Positions 43,165-50,084 of a stretch of DNA of 63,379 nucleotides are shown piece by piece (the stretch's first letter is position 1; every line of letters begins with the position of its first letter). Below the pieces are notes generated by a model. The model was not told where the DNA came from, made no database searches, and saw only the letters and a program-made list of their open reading frames with translations. The DNA lies in contig DVDT01000068.1 of assembly GCA_015296085.1 (NCBI GenBank), positions 1-63,379 on the forward strand, written 5' to 3'. Both the position numbers and the translations under genes were made by a program. This DNA comes from Trichormus sp. M33_DOE_039 (lineage in GTDB: Bacteria; Cyanobacteriota; Cyanobacteriia; Cyanobacteriales; Nostocaceae).

Positions 43165-43779
43165 CTAAACAGTGCTGTCTTCTATATCTCGTTTTCGCTG
43201 ATACAGTAGTGAACTTACAGCAACAGCGACTAACATAGGGGGTATTAAATCTGATTCAGGAACTGGTACAATTCGGACTGAACCAGTGATTGTGTTGGTA
43301 AAGACACCAAAGTCAGCTGTTTGACGACCTGTTGTCACGAGGAAATACTTTTGTTGAGCAGTCAATTCTCTGCTAAACGCAACAATCCCATCATTAGGAG
43401 TAGTATTTGCTACAAGAACATTAGTCAATTGTTGAATGGGATTGAAACTGTCTTTATATAAAACTAAGAAATTATCCCAAGCTCCATTTGCAGGTGAAGT
43501 AGCTCCAGGTACAGTGCTGGAGAATCTATATAAACCCGATTGTTCAACTGTAAAGGCAAAAACACTGTAAGGTACACTCATTCCAACAGTTCCAGCATTC
43601 TGTCCGCTGATTCTATTAGGAGGATCGCCTGGTGCTGTACGCCGCCAGATCGGTTTATTTGTTGTATCTCCTTGATAAGTAAAGATAGCGGCTTTGGCAG
43701 GGTTATTAGTAATAACACTAGTTAATAATAACCACAAAGCAATTATTAATGGTTTCTGTACAAAGTTTTTTCTCAACAT
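43165..43779 (-). CDS. Exported protein with PEP-CTERM-like tail
   Basis: The 204-residue protein has a signal peptide (KPLIIALWLLLTSVITNNPAKAA). The beta-rich body has segments such as FAFTVEQSGLYRFSSTV and KYFLVTTGRQTADFGVF, resembling pre-peptidase-like or lectin-like extracellular domains. The C-terminus VPVPESDLIPPMLVAVAVSS followed by LLYQRKR has the PEP-CTERM plan (motif, hydrophobic helix, basic cluster), with PES in place of PEP. Exosortase recognition and surface anchoring are inferred. No exosortase gene is in the window. It is the first of three neighbouring minus-strand genes with such tails. Confidence 0.72.
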   Translation of the reverse strand: MLRKNFVQKPLIIALWLLLTSVITNNPAKAAIFTYQGDTTNKPIWRRTAPGDPPNRISGQNAGTVGMSVPYSVFAFTVEQSGLYRFSSTVPGATSPANGAWDNFLVLYKDSFNPIQQLTNVLVANTTPNDGIVAFSRELTAQQKYFLVTTGRQTADFGVFTNTITGSVRIVPVPESDLIPPMLVAVAVSSLLYQRKRDIEDSTV

Positions 43780-43899
43780 AAACTCATGCTTAATTAAATG
43801 TCAATTGTAAAAGATAGCATTGCTGATGAGCGCAAATAATTCATCTAAGATTTTGGAAAAAACTTAGTTCATTACTTTGTTATACAACGCCTCAAAAAT

Positions 43900-44718
43900 T
43901 TATGATTGCTGAGATTCTTGGCGTTTTTTCTGTAGTGTCAAGGCTGTGAGCCAAAATACGCTTATTAGCATCAAACCGGAAACTGATGGTTCTGGTACTT
44001 GAGTAATGACTAACGAGACATTATCTGCATATGAATCATTGACTCGACCTCGTGCATAATTGGCACTCAGAACTACATTGATTTGACGTGTACCTACAGG
44101 TACATAACCGTTAGTTGATTGGAAAAATAAACCCGTGATATTATTTCTCTCTGCTGCATTTGGTGCAGAAATATTAGCTGCGCCTAAAGATTGGTTCGTC
44201 GCATCTAGGAAAGTGATATTGAGTGATGCAATATCTTCATCATTAGCGTATCCACCTAACCAGGCACTCAAATCAAAAGCTGCTCTACCTGCATCAATAA
44301 CTGAAGCGAGACTCTCCACATCAATAGATTGGTAAGCACTAGATGAGCCTCTACCTGCACCACCAAAAAAGAGATTTTGACCCCTATTGCTTGGCCCTGG
44401 AACATCAACAGCCGGTAAGGTAACGCTCACTAAATTACCCAAGCCATTGACAAAGTTAAAACCTGACGCACCGTATTGAATGACGCTAAAATCACCAGTT
44501 TTATTCCAACCAGGGATGAAGGGAATATCAGTTCCAACACTATTACCGATTGGATCTCCTAATCCTTGTTCTGCGTCACCATTGACAATCAAATTTTGGC
44601 CTAGTGTGGCAGCATAACTAGAATGAGCAAATAAAAAGCTAGGTACTAGCCCTACTATTAAAGAAAGGCATAGTTTGTTTATGTTCTGCGAAACTGTTTG
44701 CAAAATAATTTGATTCAT
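43900..44718 (-). CDS. PEP-CTERM exported protein
   Basis: From ATG 44718 (MNQIILQTVSQNINKL) the product is 272 residues. A signal peptide (LCLSLIVGLVPSFLFAHSSYA) precedes NLIVNGDAEQGLGDPIGN, typical of DUF642/carbohydrate-binding-type PEP-CTERM proteins. A jelly-roll-like body follows (ARGRVNDSYADNVSLVIT). The sorting tail is canonical: QVPEPSVSGLMLISVFW, LTALTLQKKR. It would be processed by an exosortase and retained in the outer layer or EPS matrix. It lies next to a large EPS locus, a recurrent association for this protein class. Confidence 0.82.
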   Translation of the reverse strand: MNQIILQTVSQNINKLCLSLIVGLVPSFLFAHSSYAATLGQNLIVNGDAEQGLGDPIGNSVGTDIPFIPGWNKTGDFSVIQYGASGFNFVNGLGNLVSVTLPAVDVPGPSNRGQNLFFGGAGRGSSSAYQSIDVESLASVIDAGRAAFDLSAWLGGYANDEDIASLNITFLDATNQSLGAANISAPNAAERNNITGLFFQSTNGYVPVGTRQINVVLSANYARGRVNDSYADNVSLVITQVPEPSVSGLMLISVFWLTALTLQKKRQESQQS

Positions 44719-44763
44719 CACTGCCTATTTATGAGATTGATAGCTTTTGTAGAAAATGTATGG

Positions 44764-45690
44764 TTAAACTTTCTTGGTAGCTATTGACTTTTTGCGAACC
44801 GCAAAAGCCACACTTAAAGCCAGTAAAGTACCATATGCACCCTGATGTTCTGGAATAGAGGTAGAGGGACTACTAAATCCATACTTTGTTAGAATTGCTT
44901 GTCCTTTTGGCGAGAGAATATATGCAGCTAACTTCTCACCATCTGGATCAGCATTCTTGAGGACAGTCAAACCATAATCAGCCTTAGTCGCCAAATAGTT
45001 AGGTAACTCTACTATTTGTAAATCTTTGCCTGCTTCTAGTTCTTGAGCAGACTTGCCACTGGTGTAATAGGCTAAAAAGATATCTGCCAGCGGATTCGTT
45101 TTGAGGAAATAGACGAGATTATTTTCTCCTGTGGGGACTGGTGGTGCAGAGGGATTCCCACCCACTAATTGCAAGGCTTGACTTTTGAGAATTTGAGAAC
45201 TACCTGGTTTAATTGCATCGGCTTTATCAAATATCTGCCATGTGTAATCCCCAGAAGGATCAGCTAGTGGTGTTGATGTGCCTACTTTGATGTTGGTATC
45301 AAGGAAGAAATCCAAGAGATTATCTGATGTGACACCAGTTAACCTTGGGTTGACAATAGCAACCATACGATTGCTAGTGAAATTTTGGACAGGATTGCTC
45401 AAACCCTGCTGGAATAGTTGTTGGGAATTTCCTAAATCAGCACTGGCAAAGACATCAGCTGATTTACCTGTCGTTAATATTTCCTGTTCTATTTTTTCTC
45501 TTGTTAAACCTGAGGGGCCAAAGTAGGTATTTACAGTGATGCCATACTCTGTAGTAAAAGCTTGTGCTACTTCCGTTAAGCTATTTCGCAAACTACCAGC
45601 ACCATATAAGGTAACGGCTAATATTGGGGTTGGTAATATGACATTGACAGCATAAGCTATCAATGAAAAGGCAAAAAACTGCTTTTTCAT
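44764..45690 (-). CDS. modA: Molybdate-binding protein ModA with PEP-CTERM-like tail
   Basis: The 308-residue protein has a signal peptide (FSLIAYAVNVILPTPILA) and a type II periplasmic binding fold: LYGAGSLRNSLTEVAQAF, YFGPSGLTREKIE, ADVFASADLGNSQQL, NRMVAIVNPRL, VGTSTPLADPSGDY, LADIFLAYYTSGKSAQE. These are ModA/WtpA hallmarks for molybdate or tungstate. Unlike ordinary ModA it ends in SIPEHQGAYGTLLALSVAFA then VRKKSIATKK, a PEP-CTERM-like anchor. The ABC part (modBC) lies 2.4 kb away. The upstream spacer holds TACCAA/TTGGTA repeats shared with modBC. Confidence 0.82.
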   Translation of the reverse strand: MKKQFFAFSLIAYAVNVILPTPILAVTLYGAGSLRNSLTEVAQAFTTEYGITVNTYFGPSGLTREKIEQEILTTGKSADVFASADLGNSQQLFQQGLSNPVQNFTSNRMVAIVNPRLTGVTSDNLLDFFLDTNIKVGTSTPLADPSGDYTWQIFDKADAIKPGSSQILKSQALQLVGGNPSAPPVPTGENNLVYFLKTNPLADIFLAYYTSGKSAQELEAGKDLQIVELPNYLATKADYGLTVLKNADPDGEKLAAYILSPKGQAILTKYGFSSPSTSIPEHQGAYGTLLALSVAFAVRKKSIATKKV

Positions 45691-45823
45691 GGTTGGTATA
45701 TAGCCATAAATTATTTAGACTACTGCTTGAATTTCTGGCAAATAATACTCAAACAGTGGTTGCATTGAGCTTAAAAGCCTTAGTCTTTGAGGATTAATGA
45801 TGATTTAATGGATGAAAATACTC

Positions 45824-45840
45824 TACCAAGTATGTTGGTA
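45824..45840. promoter_or_regulatory. Operator-like inverted repeat TACCAA-N5-TTGGTA, copy 1
   Basis: TACCAAGTATGTTGGTA is a perfect six-base inverted repeat around five bases. It lies 134 bp from the modA start and 162 bp from the porin start. It has the size of a site for a dimeric winged-helix or helix-turn-helix regulator. Confidence 0.6.
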
Positions 45841-45961
45841 TAAATCAATCCGTTTAAGTCAGAGAATTGCAACAATTAAGCGATCGCACCAGATATCTTT
45901 TTAAGAGATTCAGTAACAAAAGCTACTTTTTTTAGGAAACAATATATATTAATTTGTTTTA

Positions 45962-45978
45962 TACCAACTAGATTGGTA
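45962..45978. promoter_or_regulatory. Operator-like inverted repeat TACCAA-N5-TTGGTA, copy 2
   Basis: TACCAACTAGATTGGTA shares both half-sites and the spacing with copy 1, while the central five bases differ. It ends 23 bases before the porin ATG, where a bound protein would be expected to block transcription or translation start. Confidence 0.6.
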
Positions 45979-46001
45979 GGAAGTTTTCAGGTGTGAGGTC
46001 A

Positions 46002-47756
46002 ATGTCAAATATTGTATGGAAGTCTTGTTATGTAGCTCCTATACTGCTGGGAGTACATGTAATCATGACTCAAGTTGCATCAGCATCTCCAGTAGAAGGG
46101 GACATTGCACAGATGCAAACACAAGAAGACGTAAGAGATAAGGCTCTGATGAGTCAAGTGACATCAGTGTCCCAACTATCAGATGTGCAGCCAACAGATT
46201 GGGCTTTTCAAGCTTTGCAATCTTTAGTTGAGCGTTACGGTTGTATTGCTGGATATCCCGACAGTAGCTTTCGGGGCAATCGCGCCATGACTCGTTATGA
46301 GTTTGCGGCCGGTTTGAATGCTTGTTTGAATCGCATTAATGAACTGATAGGAACAAGTACGGCGGATTTGGTCACAAAAGAAGACCTAGCAACACTACAA
46401 AGACTGCAAGAAGAGTTTGCAGAAGGATTAACAGAACTGCGTGGGAGGGTTGATAGTTTAGAAGGACGTACAGCTACCTTAAAAAGTCAACAATTTTCTG
46501 CCACTACCAAGTTAAACGCAGAGATTATTTTTACTGCTGGTGGTGTATTTGGTGAAGATAGAGCTTTAAACTCTGACCAATGGCGGACTATCAATGCTCA
46601 ACCTGCTGGTGCTAGGCGAGAAGCTGCTAAAAACAGTGCTTATGGAAGTGCAGGACGAGACTTACAAGATAATGCTATTTTTGCCGATCGCGTCCGCATA
46701 AACCTCATCTCTAGCTTCACTGGCCAAGATCGTTTGTTTGCTCGTTTGGAAGCTACCAATACTACAGCTTTTAATGCTCCAGTCACAGGAACTAATATGA
46801 GTCGTCTGGGGTGGGACTCAACTAATAATTTGGATAACAGCGTCCAATTAGGTAAATTATTCTATCGCTTTCCTGTAGGCGATCGCCTTAACGTCATTGT
46901 TGATGCCATTGGTGGGGAGTTTTACGACAACTTCAATACGATTAACCCGTTGTTAGCATCAGCTCCAAGTGGTGCAATATCACGCTTTGGTCGCTTCTCC
47001 TCGATTTACCGCGCCAGTAACACTGGTTCTGGGAGTAATACAGGTTCAGGAATCAGTGCGATTTTTCAGTTGAGTGATGCTGTCACTTTGTCGGGGGGAT
47101 ATATTGCTAGACGAGGTAATGAACCTACACCCGGTAGAGGCTTATTTGATGGTAGCTATGGAGCATTGGCGCAGTTAGAATTTCGACCCAATAAAAACTT
47201 TACTCTGGGTTTGAGCTATGCCCACTCTTATCTGAGTGGTGGGGCTGGGGATGTGACGGTTTCTGGTGCTTATGGTAGTACCTTTGCTAATACTCCCTTT
47301 GGTGCTGGGATTGCTACTTCTGCTAACCATTACAGTTTACAAAGTAGCTATATTTTCAATCCTCAATTTGTTCTCTCTGGATGGGTGGGATATACTCAAG
47401 CGATCGCCGAAGTCAGTTCTGGTACAAATGTGAATCGTGGTGATCAAGCAGATATTTGGAACTGGGCTGTAACTTTAGCTTTTCCTGATTTGGGTAGAAA
47501 GGGGAATTTGGGCGGTCTAATTTTTGGACAACCACCAAAAGTTACTAGTAATGACTTTGGCCCTGCTGTTATAACTCCTACTAGTAATCGGCGTGAAGAT
47601 ACAGATACATCTTTCCATGTAGAAGCTTTGTATCGTTACCAAGTTAATAGTAATATTGCGATTACACCAGGATTAATTGTCATATTTAATCCAGAACATA
47701 ACAGTAACAATGATACAATTTATACGGGTGTTTTTCGGACTACATTCCGATTCTAG
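46002..47756 (+). CDS. SLH/OprB-type outer-membrane porin
   Basis: From ATG 46002 (GAGG seven bases upstream) the product is 584 residues. A signal peptide (CYVAPILLGVHVIMTQVASA) is followed by an SLH domain (VQPTDWAFQALQSLVERYG, GYPDSSFRGNRAMTRYEFA) that binds peptidoglycan-linked polysaccharide. Then come a coiled coil (LQRLQEEFAEGLTELRGRV) and a long OprB beta-barrel ending in Phe (TIYTGVFRTTFRF). Cyanobacterial relatives are general or iron-uptake porins. Its divergence from modA, with a shared operator-like motif before both, suggests a role in molybdate entry across the outer membrane. That role is inference. Confidence 0.87.
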   Translation: MSNIVWKSCYVAPILLGVHVIMTQVASASPVEGDIAQMQTQEDVRDKALMSQVTSVSQLSDVQPTDWAFQALQSLVERYGCIAGYPDSSFRGNRAMTRYEFAAGLNACLNRINELIGTSTADLVTKEDLATLQRLQEEFAEGLTELRGRVDSLEGRTATLKSQQFSATTKLNAEIIFTAGGVFGEDRALNSDQWRTINAQPAGARREAAKNSAYGSAGRDLQDNAIFADRVRINLISSFTGQDRLFARLEATNTTAFNAPVTGTNMSRLGWDSTNNLDNSVQLGKLFYRFPVGDRLNVIVDAIGGEFYDNFNTINPLLASAPSGAISRFGRFSSIYRASNTGSGSNTGSGISAIFQLSDAVTLSGGYIARRGNEPTPGRGLFDGSYGALAQLEFRPNKNFTLGLSYAHSYLSGGAGDVTVSGAYGSTFANTPFGAGIATSANHYSLQSSYIFNPQFVLSGWVGYTQAIAEVSSGTNVNRGDQADIWNWAVTLAFPDLGRKGNLGGLIFGQPPKVTSNDFGPAVITPTSNRREDTDTSFHVEALYRYQVNSNIAITPGLIVIFNPEHNSNNDTIYTGVFRTTFRF

Positions 47757-48129
47757 GGGATGGATGTTCAGAATTAACGTAATACCATTTTTTAATGAAG
47801 ATGCACTTTATTCTGCAATGTAGAGACGTTGCATGCAACGTCTCTACATGATTTATTTGGTACAACTTCATAGAGAATGGGTATCACCCCCTTGTGAATA
47901 TTAAGAGGGTTAATTTTGTATTTTATAGCAGTTGATATTTGACGGACTTAAAAGCCTGTTATTATCAGGGTTTTATGTTTCTATCTATCTGGCTACAACC
48001 ATATGCAGCTGATATTTAAAAATTCATGAGCAGTATGTCTAATATAGTAAATACAATACTTTTAGCTTCTCCTAAATCTACGCCACTGAAGGTAAATAAA
48101 TTCGCCCTTGAGAGAGTGAACTTGTTAAA
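47757..48129. other. Spacer holding a MITE
   Basis: This 373-bp region lies between the 3' ends of the convergent porin and modBC genes. Besides the MITE at 47779-47887 I see only AT-rich sequence. Confidence 0.45.
47779..47887. mobile_element. 109-bp MITE-like palindromic element
   Basis: A perfect 32-bp palindrome (47818-47849, arm ATGTAGAGACGTTGCA) sits at the centre. The flanks are also inverted: GTAATACCATT...AATGAAG at the left pairs with CTTCAT...AATGGGTATCAC at the right. There is no coding capacity. Similar GTAGAGACGTTGCA palindromes are frequent dispersed repeats in Nostoc and Anabaena genomes. It lies in a convergent intergenic space and could form a bidirectional terminator-like hairpin. 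Confidence 0.7.
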
Positions 48130-49944
48130 TTAATTCATCAAAATTAAGTGCAGAGGATCTAATTTGACGTGCCAAGGGAATGATTGGTCTTTAATAGTTA
48201 GCCATTTTTCCTTGAAGACTTCTGCTTGTAGGTGGTAGTCTTGTGGGTTATTAGCTGGTGAATGAAGTTTTAAAAATAATGTGATGCGGTGGGGTGTTTC
48301 ACTTGTCCGCACTAGCCAACAAGGAAAGGTATTTTCCTGATCTGGGTTGTTGGTAAAGGCGATGTGATGAGCGCGAATGCCTACATGAGATAATTCCTGC
48401 TCATCTTGTTCAATGACTTTGAGGCTGCAACCCCAATCAATTGCTTCTATTTCGCGGGCTGAATTCATAACAGCATGAGAGAAATTCTTGCAACCTGTAA
48501 TTTGTGCAACACTTACAGTCGCAGGATGCTCAAAAATTTCGTATCGAGAACCATGATGCACTGGTCTACCCTCTTCCAATACTAAGAGATTCGGGCAGAT
48601 TCGATAAGCTTCTTCCATGTTGTGGGTAACAAATATAGACACACCCTGGTAATTGCTCAGGGTTTCTGTCATTTGTTGTTCTAATTGACTCCGCAGGTGG
48701 GTATCGAGGGCAGAAAATGGTTCATCTAACAGCAAGGCTTCTGGTTGACTAGCTAAAGCTCTAGCTAAAGCTACTCGTTGTTGTTGACCTCCAGAAAGTT
48801 GGTGCGGATAGCGATCGCCTAATCCCTGTAGTTGCATAGCCACTAGTTGTTCTTCTACCTGCGCTCGTATACTTGTGGCGGATAGTCCTTGAGGTAAGCC
48901 AAAGGCAATGTTTTGTGCGACGGTCATATGGGGAAACAAGGCATAATTCTGCACTAAAAAACCGATGCGGCGATCGCGGCTAGGGATGTTAATTCCTTGT
49001 TGCGAGTCAAATAGTACTCTGCCATTTAAAACTATACGCCCCTTTGTAGGTGTTTCAATCCCAGCAAGACAGCGCAAAATCATACTTTTACCTGCACCTG
49101 AACCCCCTAACAATCCTAGAGGTCGCTCATCGGTACTGAAAGCTACTTGTAGATCAAAACTCGGTAAATGTTGTTCTATATCTACAAGCAATTCCACCTC
49201 AGAAGTAGGCGCAGATAATAACACAGCCTCGTTTTCTTGTCCTTGTTTCCTGAATCGACTTCTCTGTTTATCTCCCCATCTTCTCTTTTCCCTCACTTCT
49301 TGCCAAAAGTTGACAGCAATAATCCCCGACAGAGAAATTGCCATAATCATAATTGCCCAAAACCAAGCTTCCTCAGTTGCTCCAGCTTCCACTGCAAAAT
49401 AAATTGCCATTGGGATTGTCTGCGTTTGTCCAGGGATATTTCCAGCTAACATGAGGGTTGCGCCGAATTCTCCCAAGGCACGGGTAAAGGCTAAGGTGGT
49501 AGCAGCCACAATACCTGGTAGTGCTAAAGGTAAACTGATGCGCCAAAAGATGGTTGTCTCTCTAGCTCCGAGGGTTCTAGCTACCCGCAGTAAATTACTA
49601 TCAATTTGTTCAAAAGCCCCTAATGCAGTTTTATACATCAGAGGAAAAGATACTACTGTAGCCGCGATCGCTGCCCCATACCATGTAAATACAATTGTGA
49701 TGTCGAAAGGCTGCATGAGTTGCCCTACAGGGCCGTTTTTACCAAAAAACAGCAACAGCATAAAGCCCACAACCGTAGGAGGTAAAATCAAGGGAGCGAC
49801 AAAGATACCTTCAATCAGCGACTTGCCTTTGCCGTGATAATTCAGCATCCAATAAGCAGCAGCAATACCCAAAAAGAAGGTAATAAATGTTGCCAGAAGA
49901 GAAGTTTTGAGTGATATCCAAAGTGGTGACAAGTCCAATGGCAT
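48130..49944 (-). CDS. modBC: Molybdate ABC transporter, fused permease-ATPase
   Basis: This 604-residue protein fuses ModB (residues 1-220) to ModC (about 255-604). ModB has membrane segments such as LLATFITFFLGIAAAYWML and the EAA loop LGAFEQIDSNLLRVARTLGA. ModC has Walker A LLGGSGAGKSMILRCLAG, signature LSGGQQQRVALARAL and Walker B ALLLDEPFSALD. The last 100 residues resemble a degenerate TOBE region. The fusion gives an ABC importer in which one gene supplies both subunits. It would energise molybdate uptake from ModA. A TACCAA/TTGGTA repeat lies about 110 bp before its start. Confidence 0.9.
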   Translation of the reverse strand: MPLDLSPLWISLKTSLLATFITFFLGIAAAYWMLNYHGKGKSLIEGIFVAPLILPPTVVGFMLLLFFGKNGPVGQLMQPFDITIVFTWYGAAIAATVVSFPLMYKTALGAFEQIDSNLLRVARTLGARETTIFWRISLPLALPGIVAATTLAFTRALGEFGATLMLAGNIPGQTQTIPMAIYFAVEAGATEEAWFWAIMIMAISLSGIIAVNFWQEVREKRRWGDKQRSRFRKQGQENEAVLLSAPTSEVELLVDIEQHLPSFDLQVAFSTDERPLGLLGGSGAGKSMILRCLAGIETPTKGRIVLNGRVLFDSQQGINIPSRDRRIGFLVQNYALFPHMTVAQNIAFGLPQGLSATSIRAQVEEQLVAMQLQGLGDRYPHQLSGGQQQRVALARALASQPEALLLDEPFSALDTHLRSQLEQQMTETLSNYQGVSIFVTHNMEEAYRICPNLLVLEEGRPVHHGSRYEIFEHPATVSVAQITGCKNFSHAVMNSAREIEAIDWGCSLKVIEQDEQELSHVGIRAHHIAFTNNPDQENTFPCWLVRTSETPHRITLFLKLHSPANNPQDYHLQAEVFKEKWLTIKDQSFPWHVKLDPLHLILMN

Positions 49945-50056
49945 GGTTTATTTGAGACAGAATGATATACGGAAATTGACTTGGGCTAATTTATGTCTGG
50001 ATTCATGACTCAAAATAGCCGAATTAAGATTTTAATTTTCACTTCAATTCATAATT

Positions 50057-50084
50057 TACCAACCTTTTTGATAAAAAGTTGGTA
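50057..50084. promoter_or_regulatory. Operator-like inverted repeat TACCAA-N16-TTGGTA before modBC
   Basis: The half-sites TACCAA (50057-50062) and TTGGTA (50079-50084) are the same as those before modA and the porin. They are 16 bases apart instead of five, a difference of one helical turn. The inner bases (CCTTTTT / AAAAAG) extend the symmetry. Confidence 0.55.

Follow-up and report, generated by a model that had tools for sequence, protein, structure and literature searches.

In E. coli, the molybdate regulator ModE combines a winged-helix N-terminus with two Mop domains, and its operator is TATA-rich. ModG, MopII and Tub are described as binding or storage proteins, and we know of no DNA-binding domain in them. 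NikR, a ribbon-helix-helix (RHH) repressor of metal uptake with the operator GTATGA-N16-TCATAC, is called the sole metal-regulated RHH protein in the accessible part of its source (PMC7055735). For heterocystous cyanobacteria, the accessible part of a review (PMC4284476) names the molybdate regulator only as a modE homologue; in A. variabilis this gene, found directly upstream of modA, is the probable molybdate regulator, and a Mo-transport gene is repressed by molybdate and tungstate. The same part describes VnfR1 and VnfR2 as Mo-dependent repressors of the V-nitrogenase genes and places vnfR2 before vnfH (PMC4284476). Among the matches listed, the titles and abstract openings of the open-licence literature mention neither an RHH molybdate regulator nor a TACCAA-N5/N16-TTGGTA motif.

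The window, by which we mean the whole stretch of DNA analysed (63,379 nucleotides of contig DVDT01000068.1 from Trichormus sp. M33_DOE_039), carries such repeats at its molybdenum genes. We consider it probable (about 0.8) that they are operators of a predicted regulator, here named RHH-Mop, whose gene is on a different contig of this genome.

Repeats at the molybdenum genes of the window

The features of the locus are as follows.
44764..45690, minus strand, modA2, molybdate-binding protein of the NF002920 type (608 bits, cut-off 470)
45693..45698, minus strand, lone half-site TTGGTA (TACCAA on the coding strand), 2 bp from the modA2 start codon
45824..45840, no strand, putative operator 1 on the modA2 side, TACCAAGTATGTTGGTA, perfect TACCAA-N5-TTGGTA
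45962..45978, no strand, putative operator 2 on the porin side, TACCAACTAGATTGGTA, perfect TACCAA-N5-TTGGTA
45993..47756, plus strand, porin of the SLH + OprB type, divergent from modA2 (NF033921, 697 bits)
48130..49944, minus strand, fused modBC permease/ATPase (TIGR02141, 257 bits)
50057..50084, no strand, putative operator 3, TACCAACCTTTTTGATAAAAAGTTGGTA, perfect TACCAA-N16-TTGGTA, 112 bp 5' of modBC

The earlier note had reported two perfect N5 repeats between modA and the divergent porin, an N16 repeat 5' of modBC and a lone TTGGTA at the modA start, and all of them were found, perfect and in the places given. Operator 2 ends 14 bp before the porin GTG (45993) and 23 bp before an in-frame ATG (46002). 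A scan of positions 45680-46020 found no sigma-70-like promoter beside the operators.

When spacers from 0 to 30 are allowed, TACCAA-N-TTGGTA occurs three times in the window, where 0.25 occurrences are expected, and in 100 shuffles the count never rose to three. The base composition of the window predicts 0.007 perfect N5 sites for the window and 0.74 for the whole genome, and the genome contains eight, with none of the reversed motif. The eight N5 sites compare with a mean of 2.03 for each other spacing (Poisson 0.0012), an excess that is moderate because the half-site pair is common at spacings generally (69 pairs at spacings 0-30 pooled vs 18 for the reversed motif). Three of the eight are intergenic at molybdenum genes, two in the window and one on contig C83; four lie within other ORFs and one, close to the end of a contig, follows a tRNA-Leu gene at a distance of ~225 bp. 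With five of eight away from molybdenum genes, a perfect site alone is no proof of function.

Downstream of modA2, the window (43165-44721) encodes what appear by eye to be two secreted-type proteins with PEP-CTERM-like ends, and the C-terminal end of modA2 itself is also PEP-CTERM-like. A protein resembling the second of the two adjoins modA2 in one relative (L252) and lies near the porin in another (L266). A conserved protein of ~80-110 aa is found by the N5 site and the mod/porin genes in L213, L218 and L266.

A candidate regulator with a Mop domain

The N5 site on contig C83 lies between a second, canonical modA (TIGR01256, 233.5 bits) and the gene of the candidate regulator, and it ends 5 bp before the ATG of the latter.
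C83:92498-92941 (= L007:5023-5466), RHH-Mop gene, outside the window's contig, divergent from the canonical modA

The product has 148 aa, with one Mop/TOBE stretch behind an N-terminal domain. The Mop domain scores above its cut-offs (TIGR00638, 67.5 bits, cut-off 55; PF03459, 52.7 bits, cut-off 22.3), TOBE was found in 23/23 members of the family, and S83, R85, T119, S122, K139 and S140, which we take to be the Mop ligand residues, are invariant across these 23 proteins. In a Foldseek search the Mop part groups with Tub, ModG and MopII, ModE following just above E 0.001.

The N-terminus keeps the form MPRKxQGWITFQ...KTEILRELVR in the 23 aligned proteins and is a probable ribbon-helix-helix fold, a call that we grade as weak. 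RHH_1 matches 11/16 of the N-terminal domains and so does TraY (11/16), presumably another family of the same fold, and in PHROGs there are weak matches to Arc-like (7/16) and CopG-like (3/16) repressors. For the protein of the window's own genome, the RHH_1 score is 15.1 bits, below the Pfam cut-off of 20.5, and TOBE is its only match in Pfam. The AlphaFold model has helices at 15-28 and 32-44, a disordered linker at 48-74 and a Mop barrel, with a mean pLDDT of 69, and the N-terminus modeled alone reaches 78. A sequence search of the PDB matched no solved RHH chain up to E 10, and Foldseek with the N-terminal model gave no firm match, the one chain returned coming from a VapBC entry (E 8.5; VIA-align on a single chain). 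In plasmid records we found three partial matches (residues 1-46 or 1-43), all unannotated.

Two described regulators were considered and rejected. The TOBE search of the window's genome (E up to 0.001) returned four matches, RHH-Mop, a 70-aa Mop protein and two that we read by eye as ABC ATPases; no winged-helix protein was seen among them, and a canonical ModE was dismissed. NtcA was also set aside, its consensus GTA-N8-TAC, as given in the accessible part of the source (PMC4284476), running in the opposite orientation.

The motif and its genes in relatives

The motif, its spacings, their conservation and the way in which they follow the RHH-Mop gene can be read directly from the genomes. 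We drew 47 RHH-Mop loci from two samples, one of 195 genomes across the order and one of 60 genomes across the family. The best N5 site within 100 bp of the RHH-Mop start was perfect in 36 loci, had one mismatch in 5 and two in 3, and was absent at up to two mismatches in 3; it usually stands 5-8 bp before the ATG, in proteins down to ~41% identity. All five Mop-only loci (5/5) lack an N5 site at up to two mismatches. At up to one mismatch, the RHH-Mop loci have 41 matches at N5 and 9 at N16, and spacings such as N25-N27 also recur 5' of the gene because extra half-sites are present there. Across 80 named loci, most of them from Nostoc, the best N5 site within 200 bp was perfect in 26, with one mismatch in 1, two in 12 and three in 30, and no match at up to three mismatches was found in the other 11. 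The N5 operator has drifted in many Nostoc loci, and this counts against the RHH-Mop reading. In a 386-genome sample of the phylum, at least 41 genomes have a near-full-length RHH-Mop match among the matches listed, and all of these but two (G299 and G484) belong to the window's order.

Two Nostoc genomes have two RHH-Mop paralogues each (L131/L139 and L138/L150). In both, the paralogue by modA has a drifted site such as AACCAACTATATCGGTA, and in the paralogue away from modA an everted TTGGTA-N6-TACCAA replaces the usual operator.

The 60 family genomes together contain 263 perfect N5 sites vs 63 of the reversed control. Genomes with RHH-Mop (n=50) have 5.0 perfect N5 sites on average and those without (n=10) have 1.3 (Mann-Whitney p 1.4e-4), a comparison that rests on ten negative genomes, which are smaller, and in which the RHH-Mop gene's own site is counted; the reversed control is level at 1.06 and 1.0. 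Subtracting one site per positive genome leaves means of 4.02 vs 1.3 (p 0.0065), scaling per megabase gives 0.66 vs 0.23 (p 4e-4), and both corrections together give p 0.014, and all of these p-values are optimistic because the compared genomes are related. The earlier note had also staked its proposal on where the motif lies in relatives, and the placement leaves that proposal standing. The 100 regions fetched contain 113 perfect N5 sites: 26 precede a mod gene, the porin gene or RHH-Mop by no more than 500 bp, 65 fall in ORFs (150 aa or longer) and the remaining 22 are in other gaps.

A modBC match is present in 60/60 family genomes, some partial or split. Allowing no more than one mismatch and searching 600 bp upstream, we found an N5 or N16 site before modBC in 20/46 regulator-positive genomes and in 0/10 regulator-negative ones (Fisher p 0.0095, likewise optimistic given the relatedness); some of the counted sites lie 430-544 bp upstream, and a few N5 and N16 matches overlap each other (G000, G232). 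The other 26/46 regulator-positive genomes have neither spacing within these 600 bp. Across spacings 0-30 before modBC in 44 positive genomes, there are 8 matches at N5, 15 at N16 and 6 at the 29 other spacings together. That N5 and N16 alone stand out makes the N16 form a genuine second geometry. Within the modBC genes (30 loci) N5 and N16 are both absent, and N8 (11 matches) and N15 (5 matches) are present, presumably as conserved codons. Most of the 12 N16 sites compared have the longer halves TACCAACTT...AAGTTGGTA in common, and the difference between N16 and N5 is 11 bp, about one helical turn.

At modA2, five aligned regions including the window's keep the halves of operator 1 (TACCAR/TTGGTA) while the spacer varies, and the lone half-site before modA2 is present in all five. 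Conservation at orthologues, on which the earlier proposal depended, was borne out in the two relatives whose porin adjoins modA2 (porins 84 and 89% identical to the window's), where both sites hold their position. Two other relatives have modA2 with no porin in the fetched stretch; in these the site on the modA2 side persists with one mismatch and that on the porin side is absent. Porins 64-69% identical to the window's have the site in three other genera (G168, G207, G221), and in all three the fetched stretch also contains a modA; the G168 porin reads in two frames. We conclude that the TACCAA/TTGGTA pairs are very probably sites of a molybdate-sensing regulator of uptake and an outer-membrane pore. 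The earlier suggestion of one regulator for molybdate uptake and the porin is thus supported at the level of sequence, with RHH-Mop as the candidate and with the modBC site limited to the 20/46 regulator-positive genomes given above.

A protein with HTH_3 and PBP_like domains (XRE-PBP), of the VnfR type, is found in 24/60 family genomes including the window's. An N5 site lies 265-286 bp before its gene in 7/30 loci (6 perfect, 1 with one mismatch), that is, in 7/25 loci of regulator-positive genomes and 0/5 of negative ones. The gene in the window's own genome has no N5 site; an N16-like match with one mismatch lies 354 bp upstream. In L244 the XRE-PBP gene precedes a nifH-family gene, matching vnfR2 by position only. 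XRE-PBP is likely a target of the operator rather than its binder, and the candidate regulator very probably also covers another regulator gene in some relatives.

Elsewhere in the window's genome (L368, G000:C68, 223-3738), XRE-PBP lies beside partial ORFs that appear by eye nifH-, nifE- and nifN-like, and the region gives the impression of an alternative-nitrogenase cluster that has decayed or been broken. An N5 site also lies 44-149 bp before a protein of 296-337 aa in L191, L211, L244 and L285; an HsdR N-terminal domain (PF04313) is present in the proteins of L211 and L244, those of L191 and L285 look similar by eye, and the L285 one is next to a nifN-like gene. Close to the site in L251, L244, L261 and L225 is a pair of adjoining small proteins (114-134 and 119-133 aa), which in three of these loci lies opposite the XRE-PBP gene; neither Pfam nor NCBIfam gave a match for the L251 pair.

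These data bear on four other explanations. That a third regulator binds the operator, with RHH-Mop as a molybdate-binding member of its regulon, is unlikely; co-occurrence and a site before its own gene do not prove that RHH-Mop binds, and the RHH call is weak, but genomes without RHH-Mop have about as few sites as the reversed control gives, the most regular site is the one before the RHH-Mop gene itself (36/47 perfect), and the RHH-Mop N-terminus does weakly match DNA-binding RHH, Arc-like and CopG-like families. The binder could instead be the VnfR-type protein, which has a clear DNA-binding domain next to its PBP-like domain, occurs in 24/60 family genomes and in 7/30 loci has a site at a steady distance upstream, RHH-Mop being just one of its targets. 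We find this very unlikely: among 44 regulator-positive genomes, modBC sites are as frequent without XRE-PBP (14/29) as with it (6/15), and the five XRE-PBP loci of genomes lacking RHH-Mop have no N5 site.

It is quite unlikely that the N16 site before modBC belongs to a factor other than that of the N5 sites. The spacing differs, and the RHH-Mop loci mainly use N5; against this, the half-sites are the same, the 11-bp difference is about one turn, both spacings occur before modBC orthologues, and neither is found there in the ten genomes without RHH-Mop. That the repeats are chance matches or a DNA repeat family is extremely unlikely and is contradicted by the placement data. More than half of the perfect N5 sites (65/113) do fall in ORFs and the pair is common at many spacings, but the halves are kept while spacers vary, the sites are placed before mod genes across genera, and N5 exceeds its reversed control (263 vs 63). 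RHH-Mop is our preferred candidate for the binder of both forms.

A proposed molybdenum switch and its relation to known regulators

In the model that we propose for RHH-Mop, each of the two half-sites would be occupied by one of two RHH dimers, both lying on one face of the DNA and separated by one helical turn at N5 and by two at N16, and the Mop domains would join the dimers through the long flexible linker. DNA binding would be favoured when the Mop domains carry molybdate (or tungstate), and the bound protein would repress uptake (modA, modA2, modBC), the outer-membrane porin and its own gene. When molybdate is scarce, modA, modA2, modBC, the porin and RHH-Mop would be released. The repression by molybdate and tungstate described for A. 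variabilis fits a ligand-activated repressor of this kind. More broadly, and only tentatively, RHH-Mop may be a molybdate-gated RHH protein, an oxyanion counterpart of NikR that reads half-sites one or two turns apart, and may act as the top molybdenum switch of heterocyst-forming cyanobacteria, setting molybdate entry at both membranes and, via VnfR-type repressors, deciding the release of the vanadium nitrogenase. An operator, a candidate with an unusual domain pairing and two geometries make the regulator directly testable; if true, the model would bring the outer membrane into molybdenum uptake as a further step, and the supply of molybdenum could prove to be tied to whether the Mo- or the V-nitrogenase is used.

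Compared with known systems, RHH-Mop resembles E. coli ModE as a putative molybdate-sensing repressor of mod genes with a Mop/TOBE domain, and its profile finds ModE chains with E about 2e-5 to 4e-5. Unlike ModE, it has a probable RHH domain, one Mop domain and the motif TACCAA-N5/N16-TTGGTA. The ModE-type HTH_1 is not among the matches listed for the 23 members (25 of 28 families), the N-terminus being predicted as two-helix, and in place of two Mop domains there is one TOBE stretch in the 148-aa protein. With ModG, MopII and Tub it has the Mop fold in common, and the HTH_3 + PBP_like architecture of the VnfR type (as in XRE-PBP) is absent from it in Pfam. In contrast to NikR, its ligand domain is predicted to be Mop/TOBE, without the C-terminal nickel-binding domain of NikR, and an N5 form of the operator also exists; the NikR operator, as given in the accessible part of its source, and the modBC N16 site have the same 6-N16-6 layout, a likeness of layout only, as the letters differ. 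The modE homologue of A. variabilis probably belongs to the RHH-Mop gene family.
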